A stretch of 64,000 bases of DNA, taken from Agromyces bauzanensis (GTDB lineage: Bacteria; Actinomycetota; Actinomycetes; Actinomycetales; Microbacteriaceae). A program made the position numbers and the translations under genes. The stretch's first letter is position 1, and each line of letters begins with the position of its first letter. Of this stretch, positions 60,778 through 64,000 are shown piece by piece. Below the pieces are notes generated by a model. It saw only the letters and a program-made list of their open reading frames with translations. It did not search any database and was not told where the DNA came from. The stretch is from assembly GCF_014645655.1 (NCBI RefSeq), contig NZ_BMMD01000003.1, positions 62,001 to 126,000 of the forward strand, read 5' to 3'.

Positions 60778-61704
60778 CTACTCCGCCGGCTCTACCGACT
60801 CGACCTCGATGAGGTACACGAGTGTCTGGCCGCCGAGCGGATTCAGCTCGCTGTGCTCCGTACCGTACGCGGACTGTGGCGGGATGGTCACGATCAGCTT
60901 CGCTCCCGGTTTCTGGCCGATCACCGCTGCGGCGAGGCCCGGGACAAGCCCGTCGGTCGAGAGGATCGGCGCCTGACCACCGTAGCTCTGCTCGAACACC
61001 TCACCGGAATCCCAGCTGGTGCCCTGGTAGTGCATGGTCACGGTGTCGCCGGCCTGCACCTCCTCGCCTTCGCCCGGCTCGAGCACTTTCAGGAGCAGGT
61101 CTACGGGCGGCTCGGCCTCGGGAAGGGTCACAACGGGCGCGGCGCCCGCGGCGGCTCCGAACGCGACCTCCGGCACGTCCTCCGTCCACGGCCGTGGCTC
61201 CAGGGGCTCCTGCACGTCGGCCACGATCACCACGGTGTCGCCGGGCGCGAGACCGATCGCCCCGTTGCCCTGCCCATCGTAGAGGGCGGTCGAGGGCGCG
61301 ACCGTGACGGTACGCGAGCCCGTCGGAACGCAGTCGACGGCAGCGCGGAATGCGTCGTAGTCTCCGCCCGTGACGGTCACCGGATGCGTGAGGAGTTGCT
61401 GGCCGGTCGCGCCCGAGTACAGGCTCACCACGGCGCTCACGTGGGTTCCGGGGACGGTGGTCTCGCCGTCGCCCTCGCGAACCACGGTCCTCTCGAGTTC
61501 CTCGGCCTGAACGGGCAGGTCGAAGGCCGCGGTGGGCGCAACGCCGAAATCGCCGTCGACCTTCACGTCGTCGCTGAGCGATCCCGGCAGGACTTCCATG
61601 CATTCCGGGGTGTCGGGACCGGGGCCGGCGACGCAGCCGGCGAGAAGAAGGGCAGCGATCATGGCGAGCGTGAGGCAGGTTCCGTGGCGGAGGGCGCGTT
61701 TCAT
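60778..61704 (-). CDS. Tandem-domain FKBP-type lipoprotein (copy 3)
   Basis: 308 residues from an ATG after AGGAG; a longer frame runs back into the PstB gene. Lipobox LLLAGC gives Cys24. Like copy 1 it has a degenerate first FKBP-like half (ERTVVREGDGETT, LAPGDTVVIVADV) and a clearer second half (HYQGTSWDSGEVFEQSYGG, AYGTEHSELNPLGG). The catalytic Asp37 equivalent is Glu here (VFEQ) and the VI-W floor reads LVPGL, so isomerase activity is doubtful; a chaperone or binding role is possible. It lies 65 bp after PstB on the same strand. Confidence 0.82.
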   Translation of the reverse strand: MKRALRHGTCLTLAMIAALLLAGCVAGPGPDTPECMEVLPGSLSDDVKVDGDFGVAPTAAFDLPVQAEELERTVVREGDGETTVPGTHVSAVVSLYSGATGQQLLTHPVTVTGGDYDAFRAAVDCVPTGSRTVTVAPSTALYDGQGNGAIGLAPGDTVVIVADVQEPLEPRPWTEDVPEVAFGAAAGAAPVVTLPEAEPPVDLLLKVLEPGEGEEVQAGDTVTMHYQGTSWDSGEVFEQSYGGQAPILSTDGLVPGLAAAVIGQKPGAKLIVTIPPQSAYGTEHSELNPLGGQTLVYLIEVESVEPAE

Positions 61705-61769: not shown

Positions 61770-62675
61770 TCACCCGAACCGCCCGCTCACGTAGTCGTGG
61801 GTGCGCGGGTCGATGGGGTCGGCGAACATCGCCTCGGTGTCGCCGTGCTCGATGATCGTGCCCGGCGTACCCTGCGCGGCGAGGAAGAAGGCGCACTGCT
61901 GCGACACCCGCTGGGCCTGCTGCATGTTATGGGTGACGATGACGATGGTGACCTCGTGCGCAAGCTCGAGCATGGTCTCCTCGATGACACGCGTCGACGT
62001 CGGATCGAGCGCCGAGCACGGTTCATCCATGAGCAGCACTCGCGGCCGCACCGCGAGCGACCGAGCGATGCAGAGCCGCTGCTGCTGGCCGCCCGAGAGT
62101 CCCGCGCCGGGTGCGCGCAGTCGGTCCTTCACCTCGTTCCACAGGCCGGCCTTGACGAGGCACGATTCGACGAGCTCGTCCTTCTCGCCGTGCGAGACCC
62201 GCACGCCGGTCAGCTTGAGGCCGGCGATGACGTTGTCGTAGATCGACATCGCCGGGAACGGGTTCGGCTTCTGGAACACCATCCCGATCTGCTTTCTCGC
62301 GTCGACGAGCTTCCGCGCCGGGTCGTAGATATCGTCCCCGTCGAGCAGGACCTCTCCGGCGAGGCTCGCCGATGGCACGAGCTCATGCATGCGATTGAGG
62401 ATGCGGAGGAAGGTCGACTTGCCGCAGCCCGAGGGGCCGATCAGCGACGTGATCACTCCCGCCTCCATGGTGAGCGAGACCCGGTCGAGCACCTGGTGGT
62501 CGCCGAACCACGCGGTGATGTTGCGGCCCTCGAGGGTTGCGGGGGTCGCGGGCTCGGGTTCGGCCGCCTGAAACGGCTGCTGCTGGATGCCGCGGCCGAA
62601 TCGGGGCGGGCGGATGCCTTCCTGCCCGTCAGGGCTCTCGGGAATCACCTCGACGGTGGTGATGTCGTCGGTCAT
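61770..62675 (-). CDS. pstB: PstB-type phosphate ABC transporter ATPase
   Basis: ATPase of a phosphate-type importer. 301 residues from the ATG at 62675, preceded by GGAAG. A polar 45-residue lead is unusual. Then Walker [20 protein letters not shown] near 83, [19 protein letters not shown], signature [16 protein letters not shown], Walker [14 protein letters not shown] and [12 protein letters not shown] are all PstB-like. No PstS, PstC or PstA is in the window; the upstream neighbour on the same strand is a sortase-like protein, so they may lie beyond the right edge. Confidence 0.85.
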
Positions 62676-62732
62676 GGCCTCGTCTTCCTTCGGGTTGCGC
62701 GGTTCAGGATGCATGGATCAGGGGGCGCGGGG

Positions 62733-63737
62733 TCAGAGCAGGTTCGGCAGGAGCCGCACGACCTCGCCGGTCACCCAGAGCGCGGCGAGCACGGTGAGCG
62801 GCACGAACACGATCCAGGTGCGGCGCGGCCCCACGTTGCGGTAGGCCCAGACCGCGACGAACTCGACGACCACGAGGAACTGCAGCGCGAACACGAGCGC
62901 CCACGCCATCGACGTGTCGCCGCGAAGCTCGCGGTCGGACTCGGGCAGCGTGGCGAAGTTCGTCAGCCGCACCCCCCTCGGCTGCACCTCGCTCGCCAGA
63001 CGGGCATCCACTCGGGCCACTCCCGTCGGCGAGAAGGGCACGCCGCGGGCGGTGGTGAGGATGACGCGGCTCTCGCCCGGCGTCAACCGTGGCGGGGCCG
63101 GGTCGCCCGCGTAGCGCAGGCCGATCACCTCGAACGTGTGCTCCCCCTGCCCCGTGATGATCGTGAATTCGTCACCGGGCGCGAGTTCTTGGATGCGGGC
63201 GAACGGCCCGCCGAAGGCCGCCGCCCGCCCGAGGATCACGCTCACGCCGACCTGGCCGGGCAGCGAGGTGTCGCGACGATGTCCGGGGCCCAGCTGCGTG
63301 GTTCCCGAATCGGTGCCCTCGACCACGATCTCGCGGATGCCGAGCTTCGGGATCTCCATCAGCGCGACGGGCGCCCCGTCGGGCAGCAGCACGTCGTTCA
63401 CGTCGCCTTCGCTCACCGGGCCGACGCCCTGCTCGAGCTGGGCGCGGAAGGAGTCGCTCAGCTGCTGCTGCGTGACGAAGTGGCGGATCTGGCCGATGAC
63501 CATCACGTTCAGCACGAACGCAAGCAGCAACGCCGAGCAGACGATCAGCGTGCCGCGGATGAACTGCATGCGGGGCGAGAGCACCACCGGTGGGCGTTCC
63601 GGTCGCGGCATCCGTCGGGGTGGCTTCGGCGGCCGGGGCGGCTTCGGAGGCCGGATCTTCCGCGGCGGAGTGGCCGAGACGTCGCCGTACGTGTCGGTGC
63701 TGTCGTATCCGTACGTGTCGAGCTCCATGAGCGTCAT
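62733..63737 (-). CDS. Sortase-fold membrane protein lacking the catalytic residues
   Basis: 334 residues: a Pro/Arg/Lys-rich cytoplasmic lead (20-50), a membrane helix (about 62-83), a sortase-like domain (about 110-250) and two C-terminal helices (about 277-298, 307-326). The fold is marked by VALMEIPKLGIREIVVEGT, LGPGHRRDTSLPGQ and SRVILTTARG. Where class E sortases read AGHR this reads LGRA (position 171 Arg for His), and where they read TLTTC it reads ILTTA (Ala230 for Cys). Hence no transpeptidase chemistry is expected. The start overlaps the upstream stop by ATGA. Confidence 0.8.
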   Translation of the reverse strand: MTLMELDTYGYDSTDTYGDVSATPPRKIRPPKPPRPPKPPRRMPRPERPPVVLSPRMQFIRGTLIVCSALLLAFVLNVMVIGQIRHFVTQQQLSDSFRAQLEQGVGPVSEGDVNDVLLPDGAPVALMEIPKLGIREIVVEGTDSGTTQLGPGHRRDTSLPGQVGVSVILGRAAAFGGPFARIQELAPGDEFTIITGQGEHTFEVIGLRYAGDPAPPRLTPGESRVILTTARGVPFSPTGVARVDARLASEVQPRGVRLTNFATLPESDRELRGDTSMAWALVFALQFLVVVEFVAVWAYRNVGPRRTWIVFVPLTVLAALWVTGEVVRLLPNLL

Positions 63738-64000
63738 GCAGGTTCTCCCACCCGCACCGGCTGCGCGAGCCGCCGCAGGAAGTAGCGCACCGCCGCGAAC
63801 CCGAGCCCGACGACGATCAGCACGGCGATGAGCCACGGCGGCGCGAACACATTGGCGTCGCGCGTGAACGACGAGAGCTCGGCGTTGTCGACGACTGGGG
63901 GCGGAGTGAGGCGCGCGTGCACCGTCACGAACGTCCACTGTCCCACCCCTTGGAGGGTGGCGCTGATGGTGCGCTTCTCGCCGGGCACCATGCCGGTCAC
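63734..64000 (-). CDS. C-terminal end of a membrane-anchored surface protein (5' end outside window)
   Basis: At least 88 codons, open to the window edge. A beta-rich segment (ISATLQGVGQWTFVTVHARLTPP) precedes one membrane helix (PWLIAVLIVVGLGFAAVRYFL) and a short basic tail, the layout of an exported protein anchored at its C-terminus. No LPXTG-type motif lies before the helix in the visible part. Overlaps the sortase-like gene by 4 bp, so they are made together. Confidence 0.6.
   Translation of the reverse strand: MTGMVPGEKRTISATLQGVGQWTFVTVHARLTPPPVVDNAELSSFTRDANVFAPPWLIAVLIVVGLGFAAVRYFLRRLAQPVRVGEPA

Follow-up and report, generated by a model that had tools for sequence, protein, structure and literature searches.

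Sortases have been studied as transpeptidases and as drug targets. The protein considered here, a pseudo-sortase encoded by Agromyces bauzanensis, shares with class E and class D sortases the fold, the N-terminal membrane helix and the GPGH..D..LPGQ.G and YG.PF motifs, but it and its relatives differ from them in having Arg or Lys for the catalytic His, Ala, Ser or Gly for the catalytic Cys, a shorter loop before beta-7, a C-terminal hairpin and pst genes as neighbours. The nearest PDB entries by profile or fold are 4d70, 5uus and 5go5. The neighbours resemble PstSCAB in that PstC and PstA score over their family cut-offs, PstB falls just under its own, PstS is homologous and PHO-box-like sites occur at some loci; unlike PstSCAB, the system has a transmembrane (TM)-anchored PstS with Glu for the pocket Asp, two extra PstS-family proteins, the pseudo-sortase and, in many species, wall proteins.

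A third relevant group is the WxL/WxLIP (DUF916-DUF3324) clusters of Firmicutes, the phylum that holds over 91% of 938 WxL sequences according to an excerpt of PMC9772566 (further background is given in part of PMC10599100). Proteins of the present loci match these families weakly (WxLIP in 24/24, WxL in 4/19, with the A. bauzanensis copies below cut-off and unmatched, respectively) and differ from the Firmicutes clusters in being Pst-linked and in showing, by eye, the first W-x-L motif only. In Isd-type heme relays, several homologous ligand-binding proteins lie between the wall and an ABC importer, and an active sortase anchors covalently. The system described below may be alike in logic, with multiple ligand-binding proteins from wall to importer, except that its sortase is dead. 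Neither a description of a pst-linked dead sortase system nor a conserved non-catalytic sortase was found in the open-access literature searched, and the word sortase is absent from the available portion of PMC7866108.

Gene row and partner proteins

The window, i.e. the whole 64,000-nucleotide stretch of DNA analysed, corresponds to C3:62001-126000, where C3 coordinates are those of the contig; the contig stretch flanking it on the right is termed L007. The genes are as follows, with TM and secretion labels assigned by eye unless a model is cited.

C3:136238-137416, minus strand: pstC, in the gene row past the right edge of the window
C3:134988-136241, minus strand: pstA, in the gene row past the right edge
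C3:133333-134991, minus strand: PstS-TM, a PstS with a C-terminal TM
C3:130667-133336, minus strand: S2, a PstS-like protein of 889 aa with a C-terminal TM
C3:129352-130476, minus strand: S3, a secreted PBP-like protein
C3:127872-129302, minus strand: a secreted protein, tentatively WxL-like
C3:126555-127802, minus strand: a WxLIP-like protein with a TM
C3:125734-126558 (starting beyond the window; C-terminal part at 63734..64000 in the window), minus strand: a protein of 274 aa whose C-terminal stretch is TM-like (by eye)
C3:124733-125737 (62733..63737 in the window), minus strand: the pseudo-sortase, 334 aa (ORF, profiles and model)
C3:123770-124714 (61770..62714 in the window), minus strand: pstB, an ABC ATPase carrying an N-terminal leader (ORF and profiles)

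The earlier note on this DNA had proposed looking past the right edge for pstS, pstC and pstA, and all three are present there. Its C-terminally anchored protein upstream of the pseudo-sortase agrees with the TM-like stretch seen by eye in the 274-aa protein, and the ATGA coupling that it reported is visible as a 4-nt overlap between the ATG start of the pseudo-sortase and the upstream stop (63734-63737). PstC scored 234.3 bits against TIGR02138 (cut-off 196.45) and PstA 217.2 bits against TIGR00974 (cut-off 193.45). PstB, in which the Walker motif and LLMDEP were recognized by eye, scored 337.5 bits against TIGR00972, just below the cut-off of 343.2, over profile positions 2-248 of 248; its true start may be an internal ATG (MTDDITT). 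The same note had called the PstB leader unusual, which did not hold within the family, as most PstBs of relatives have an N-terminal leader of varying length. After pstB (window 60778-61704) lies the gene of a secreted peptidyl-prolyl isomerase of the FKBP type that looks like a lipoprotein; it was set aside as a part of the system since it was matched in its own locus only among the relatives' loci compared. A PASTA Ser/Thr kinase gene (L007:16457-18364) lies directly upstream of pstC; in 18 of the 34 loci from relatives (E 1e-4) a kinase match adjoins the operon on one side or the other, and PASTA-kinase-type matches are also found near the active sortase loci L078, L079 and L245.

PstS-TM matched a solved PstS in the PDB (8ods, E 5.8e-34). 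Its anion-site Arg and Ser-Gly are retained in all 26 sequences aligned (of 35 found), and in the same 26 the pocket Asp, which we take to be Asp56 of E. coli, is replaced by Glu; its ligand or affinity may therefore differ. The genome contains two other pst sets, and both of their PstS proteins have Asp at this position. A profile alignment (probability 97.7, E 2.3e-12) relates S2 to PstS-TM, with Arg-Ser-Asp kept and Gly-Ser-Gly-Thr (the SGT loop) dropped. The model of S2 (pLDDT 83.8) matched PstS structures (8ods, E 3.8e-11; 4lvq, TM by target 0.81). At locus L239, the S2-type protein consists of a neocarzinostatin-family domain followed by a PBP domain, both above cut-off. S3 is assigned to the PBPs because PBP_like_2 was matched in 8 of 31 members (best 8.5e-12) and above cut-off in the L239 relative; profile comparisons of S3 with PstS-TM (probability 3.7) and with S2 were not significant, and the S3 profile had no match in the PDB. 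S3 is without the anion-site Arg. Judged by these residues, S2 (without the SGT loop) and S3 (without the Arg) may not bind phosphate.

For the wall proteins, the peptidoglycan-binding WxLIP domain (PF06030) matched all 24 sequences scanned under an E limit of 0.1, most strongly at 1.1e-8 (17.9 bits for the A. bauzanensis copy, cut-off 27.3), while the four PF13731 (WxL) matches among 19 sequences, under the same limit, reached 0.0014 at best. In the secreted protein the second W-x-L position reads TLTL, i.e. the two motifs are not both present, and the WxL label is tentative. A C-terminal TPxDP stretch in S2 was considered as sorting-signal-like and rejected: it occurs in many loci of the window type and is absent in the compact type (half of the rows viewed). 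These alignments used subsets of the sequences found (A1, 38 of 39, without L077; A3, 31 of 34; A4, 34 of 35; A5, 26 of 35; A6, 24 of 25).

Sortase fold and catalytic positions

The pseudo-sortase scored 42.0 bits against PF04203 (cut-off 26.6), covering profile positions 1-83 of 125 only, and 56.4 bits against the class E sortase model NF033747, under its curated cut-off of 160. It consists of an N-terminal TM helix, a sortase barrel and a C-terminal hairpin terminating in LLPNLL. An AF2 model built from 38 sequences (mean pLDDT 86.3) places an N-terminal helix at 55-102, a barrel with seven listed strands, and C-terminal helices at 277-301 and 304-333. When this model was compared with the PDB using Foldseek, each of the best 50 of 234 matches (E up to 10) was a sortase, the top match being the class D sortase 4d70 (E 1.3e-10, TM by target 0.81). 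By model and PDB comparison, the protein has the sortase beta-barrel fold, with the two added C-terminal helices that had been described from the sequence.

Position 171, that of the catalytic His, is Arg and position 230, that of the catalytic Cys, is Ala, as had also been read earlier. The register at the His is given by GHRxTYGxPF in class E and GRAAAYGGPF in this copy, of the same length, and that at the Cys by TLTTC and ILTTA; the relative at locus L234 (GRRTTYGAPF, LTTSNPEY) is consistent with both. A MAFFT alignment instead puts the class E Cys in an insert column right after 230, where the family rows have a gap in 126 of 127 and Tyr in one, and there is no Cys in the family under either reading of the register. 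The beta-8 Arg position varies in the family alignment (mostly R or Y); the apparent loss of this Arg noted before thus stands for many relatives, but not plainly for the A. bauzanensis copy, which has Arg242.

Among the 133 rows of the family-wide alignment, 127 are family members, with Arg at 171 in every one and Ala (120), Ser (5) or Gly (2) at 230; the remaining six are class E sortases carrying His and Cys. The 127 rows all differ and comprise 118 distinct barrel sequences, with some genomes present twice. They were gathered partly by the pattern HRRD..LPGQ, which could miss active forms; the whole-protein searches of family, order, class and phylum are free of this bias. Arg replaces the catalytic His in 38/38 Microbacteriaceae relatives and in the A. 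bauzanensis copy. For the 28 class-level matches residues were inspected in 25 (L172-L196), where position 171 is Arg (23) or Lys (2) and position 230 is Ala (19), Ser (4), Thr (1) or Val (1), in a motif without Cys. A conserved Cys or His elsewhere in the fold had been named as grounds against a dead sortase; no such replacement was seen in the family alignments, and relocation of the catalytic residues was rejected. His153 was likewise discarded as a sign of new chemistry, since the active sortases aligned here conserve it too. The motifs that surround the former groove (HRRD, LPGQ, R171, TGQG and VDA) are strongly conserved. The C-terminal hairpin is conserved as well, the PN at its end being near-invariant, and the loop preceding beta-7 is short compared with that of class E enzymes.

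Recurrence, selection and origin

Searches at increasing rank gave strong matches in 34/150 genomes of the family, 8/99 of the order and 28/148 of the class, and the dead form was present in 6/198 genomes of the phylum sample. In the Microbacteriaceae, the 39 strong matches (one partial) from the 34 genomes had E-values of 2.3e-40 or lower, and the next matches followed at 2.3e-13 or higher. A plasmid search with the pseudo-sortase protein returned no match. PstB lies downstream in 38/38 loci of family relatives, with the order at L057 disturbed by an overlapping ORF call, and was found in 79 of 80 named dead-sortase loci, the contig of the remaining one ending first. All 34 family loci with enough contig contained PstC, PstA, PstS-TM and S2 (E 1e-4); at the same threshold S3 was matched in 33 of these loci, the WxLIP-like protein in 23 and the WxL-like protein in 17. 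Across the 150 family genomes, S2 and the dead sortase occurred together in 34, S2 alone in one (at a contig end) and the dead sortase alone in none.

At class level, short flanks (n = 25) showed pstB next to the dead sortase in 12 cases, S3 in eight and neither in five. In 18 wider stretches, S2 was found in 16, PstC or PstA in 16 and a PstB-like gene in 15; two of the gaps are short contigs, and at L197 PstC and PstA occur with no PstB, the same genome having a second locus with PstB. Most of the operon core thus recurs across Actinomycetota in varying order. The gene order that the earlier note had proposed to search for was borne out as far as the dead sortase recurs with pst genes, but the order varies and pstB is not always adjacent.

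Selection on the pseudo-sortase is mostly purifying, judged from dN/dS ratios of 0.055-0.263 in nine of ten pairs and 0.422 in the other, figures that are rough as several pairs have high dS. The ratio was near that of pstB in most pairs and about 2.6 times as high in L064/L066 and L071/L074. In a maximum-likelihood tree built from 44 selected rows, a single branch with support of 100/97 separated 35 dead from 9 active rows. Under midpoint rooting, L234 splits first among the dead rows; its protein (GRRTTYG, LTTSNPEY) has Arg in place of the His, Ser in place of the Cys and the beta-8 Arg, and its gene lies between an S2-type protein and pstC, pstA, pstB and pstS. The deepest dead branch, L239, has consecutive genes for an S2-type protein, the dead sortase, pstC, pstA, pstB and pstS.

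In the phylum search, 8/198 genomes had a match at E 1e-20. Three of the matches (L236, L237 and L238) retain His and Cys, and all three lie outside pst loci. The active L236 and L238 proteins show by eye a C-terminal hydrophobic hairpin with ends (LLPPNL or ALPGNY) resembling LLPNLL. A distantly matching ABC ATPase is divergent to the sortase at L241 and L242 (E 1e-19 and 3e-20). In one genome (G397; L240, L242), the genes of a dead sortase, S2 and S3 are divergent to pstCAB-pstS, and an active sortase whose C-terminal hairpin is similar is encoded elsewhere. Taken together, the tree and the loci fit a single loss of catalysis along with entry into the pst operon. A pst cluster with an intact sortase in relatives, which had been named as a sign of mere decay, was not seen among the loci examined.

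Possible phosphate control and roles

The source consulted describes the coelicolor PHO box and, more generally, 11-nt direct repeat units. The 231 loci (2.78 Mb, overlaps included) contain four distinct sites of the pattern GTTCACCN4GTTCAC and none of its reverse: at the start of the two other pstS genes of the A. bauzanensis genome, and upstream of pstC in L058 and L199, both dead-sortase operons. In place of a strict 11-bp PHO box, the operon described here carries the weaker TTCG-N17-GTTCACC at the pstC start. Among 35 pstC upstream stretches, the strict 11-bp rule was satisfied in one and the N17-spaced form found in 10, against an expectation of 0.1 (9 of 1613 other windows), with the spaced motif having been noticed in the same 35 sequences before counting, with two of the ten rows (L048 and L049) being near-copies, and with the site of L057 lying 84 bases past the called start. 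Other spacings from 4 to 29 occurred in at most one of the 35 each; either form was present in 11/35 (expected 0.17) and neither in 24/35. In the A. bauzanensis genome, TTCR-N17-GTTCAC has 14 sites (control, 0), three of which precede pstC of this operon, its S3 gene and phoU, and 11 of which are situated within coding frames or lack a visible phosphate link. The spaced motif also occurs upstream of S3 in 3/34 loci and upstream of WxLIP in 3/25. These sites are support, not proof, for phosphate control. The earlier note had suggested a phosphate-type transport or surface assembly system; because of the PHO-box-like sites and the PstS residues, phosphate uptake is now the better supported of the two and surface assembly the less.

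Our main reading, to which we give a probability of about 0.56, is a Pho-regulated importer whose binding proteins extend to the surface and in which a non-catalytic sortase serves as a subunit. The analysis shows the fold, the missing catalytic residues, the conservation, the linkage and co-occurrence of the genes and, at some loci, PHO-box-like sites; we infer that the substrate is phosphate, that the operon is under Pho control, that a complex forms, that the pseudo-sortase has a docking role and which partner it binds. PstC, PstA and PstB would form the membrane pump, to which the membrane-anchored PstS would pass phosphate; S2, TM-anchored and with a changed pocket, and the secreted S3 would extend the importer into the cell wall, joined in many species by the WxL-like and WxLIP-like proteins. 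The pseudo-sortase would be a membrane subunit derived from a class E-like sortase through loss of His and Cys, and probably holds at least one PstS-family partner beside PstCA without cutting it, using the old substrate groove and the membrane hairpin. Exact docking onto PstS-family tails is a guess. A fuller version, in which wall-displayed PstS-family proteins relay phosphate from wall to membrane, their tails gripped in the former groove and presented to PstCA with no covalent anchoring, is possible but doubtful; if true, this would be, to the best of our knowledge and within the open-access literature searched, the first sortase turned transporter subunit.

Several other explanations were considered. 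The lost catalytic residues could mark a decaying relic sitting by chance in a pst operon, which we reject as scarcely credible because Arg171 is present in 127/127 rows, Cys is absent, selection is mostly purifying and the dead forms lie on one supported branch; that they occur in several classes of the phylum sampled, and with steady neighbours, argues against it as well, such that the conservation data already contradict decay. That the protein is still an enzyme, with a chemistry independent of Cys and His, could account for the conserved motifs around the old groove, yet no conserved nucleophile is seen (230 is Ala in 120/127 rows) and the shortened loop before beta-7 speaks against it, making this very improbable.

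The pseudo-sortase might instead be a regulator that senses occupancy of PstS or PstCAB and signals via the membrane hairpin, much as elsewhere PstB-PhoU acts on a sensor kinase. Its steady linkage to Pst genes, the conserved hairpin with the PN end and the kinase gene beside the operon in about half of the relatives' loci (18/34) are in keeping with such a role; profile searches, however, found no known signalling domain, and across the class it is S2 and S3, not a kinase or PhoU, that are the steady neighbours, and we regard it as unlikely. The same architecture might also move something other than orthophosphate, such as a different oxyanion or a small ester of phosphate. The Glu for Asp in all 26 aligned PstS-TM pockets, the altered pockets of S2 and S3 and the Asp retained by the two other PstS proteins of the genome would suit a different ligand, whereas the PHO-box-like sites suggest phosphate control and PstC and PstA score above the NCBIfam phosphate equivalog cut-offs; on balance, we consider this rather unlikely too.

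Returning to the importer with a non-catalytic sortase subunit, our data suggest that an elaborate, probably phosphate-controlled uptake system of actinobacteria includes, as a conserved component, an enzyme-like protein lacking the catalytic residues; a wall-anchoring enzyme may thus have been put to non-enzymatic use in a nutrient transporter. For the way in which actinobacteria with thick walls acquire phosphate, a Pst transporter with additional PstS-family and wall-binding components is relevant, and the label "sortase" on this gene implies an activity that is very probably absent.

Some minor variants were also observed. In compact operons (L058, L062, L065, L068, L070, L071, L074 and L075), which had no WxL or WxLIP matches, S3 is about 680-1040 aa long with an extra C-terminal part, and Big_3_5 bacterial Ig-like repeats (Pfam) occur in 5/31 S3 proteins. 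A contig filed as Stenotrophomonas maltophilia (L142) has an actinobacterial dead sortase and pstB, and is probably contamination. Lastly, L077, near a contig end (G118:C1), is a second, apparently damaged partial copy of the operon, the WxL-like protein of which is almost identical to that of L057.
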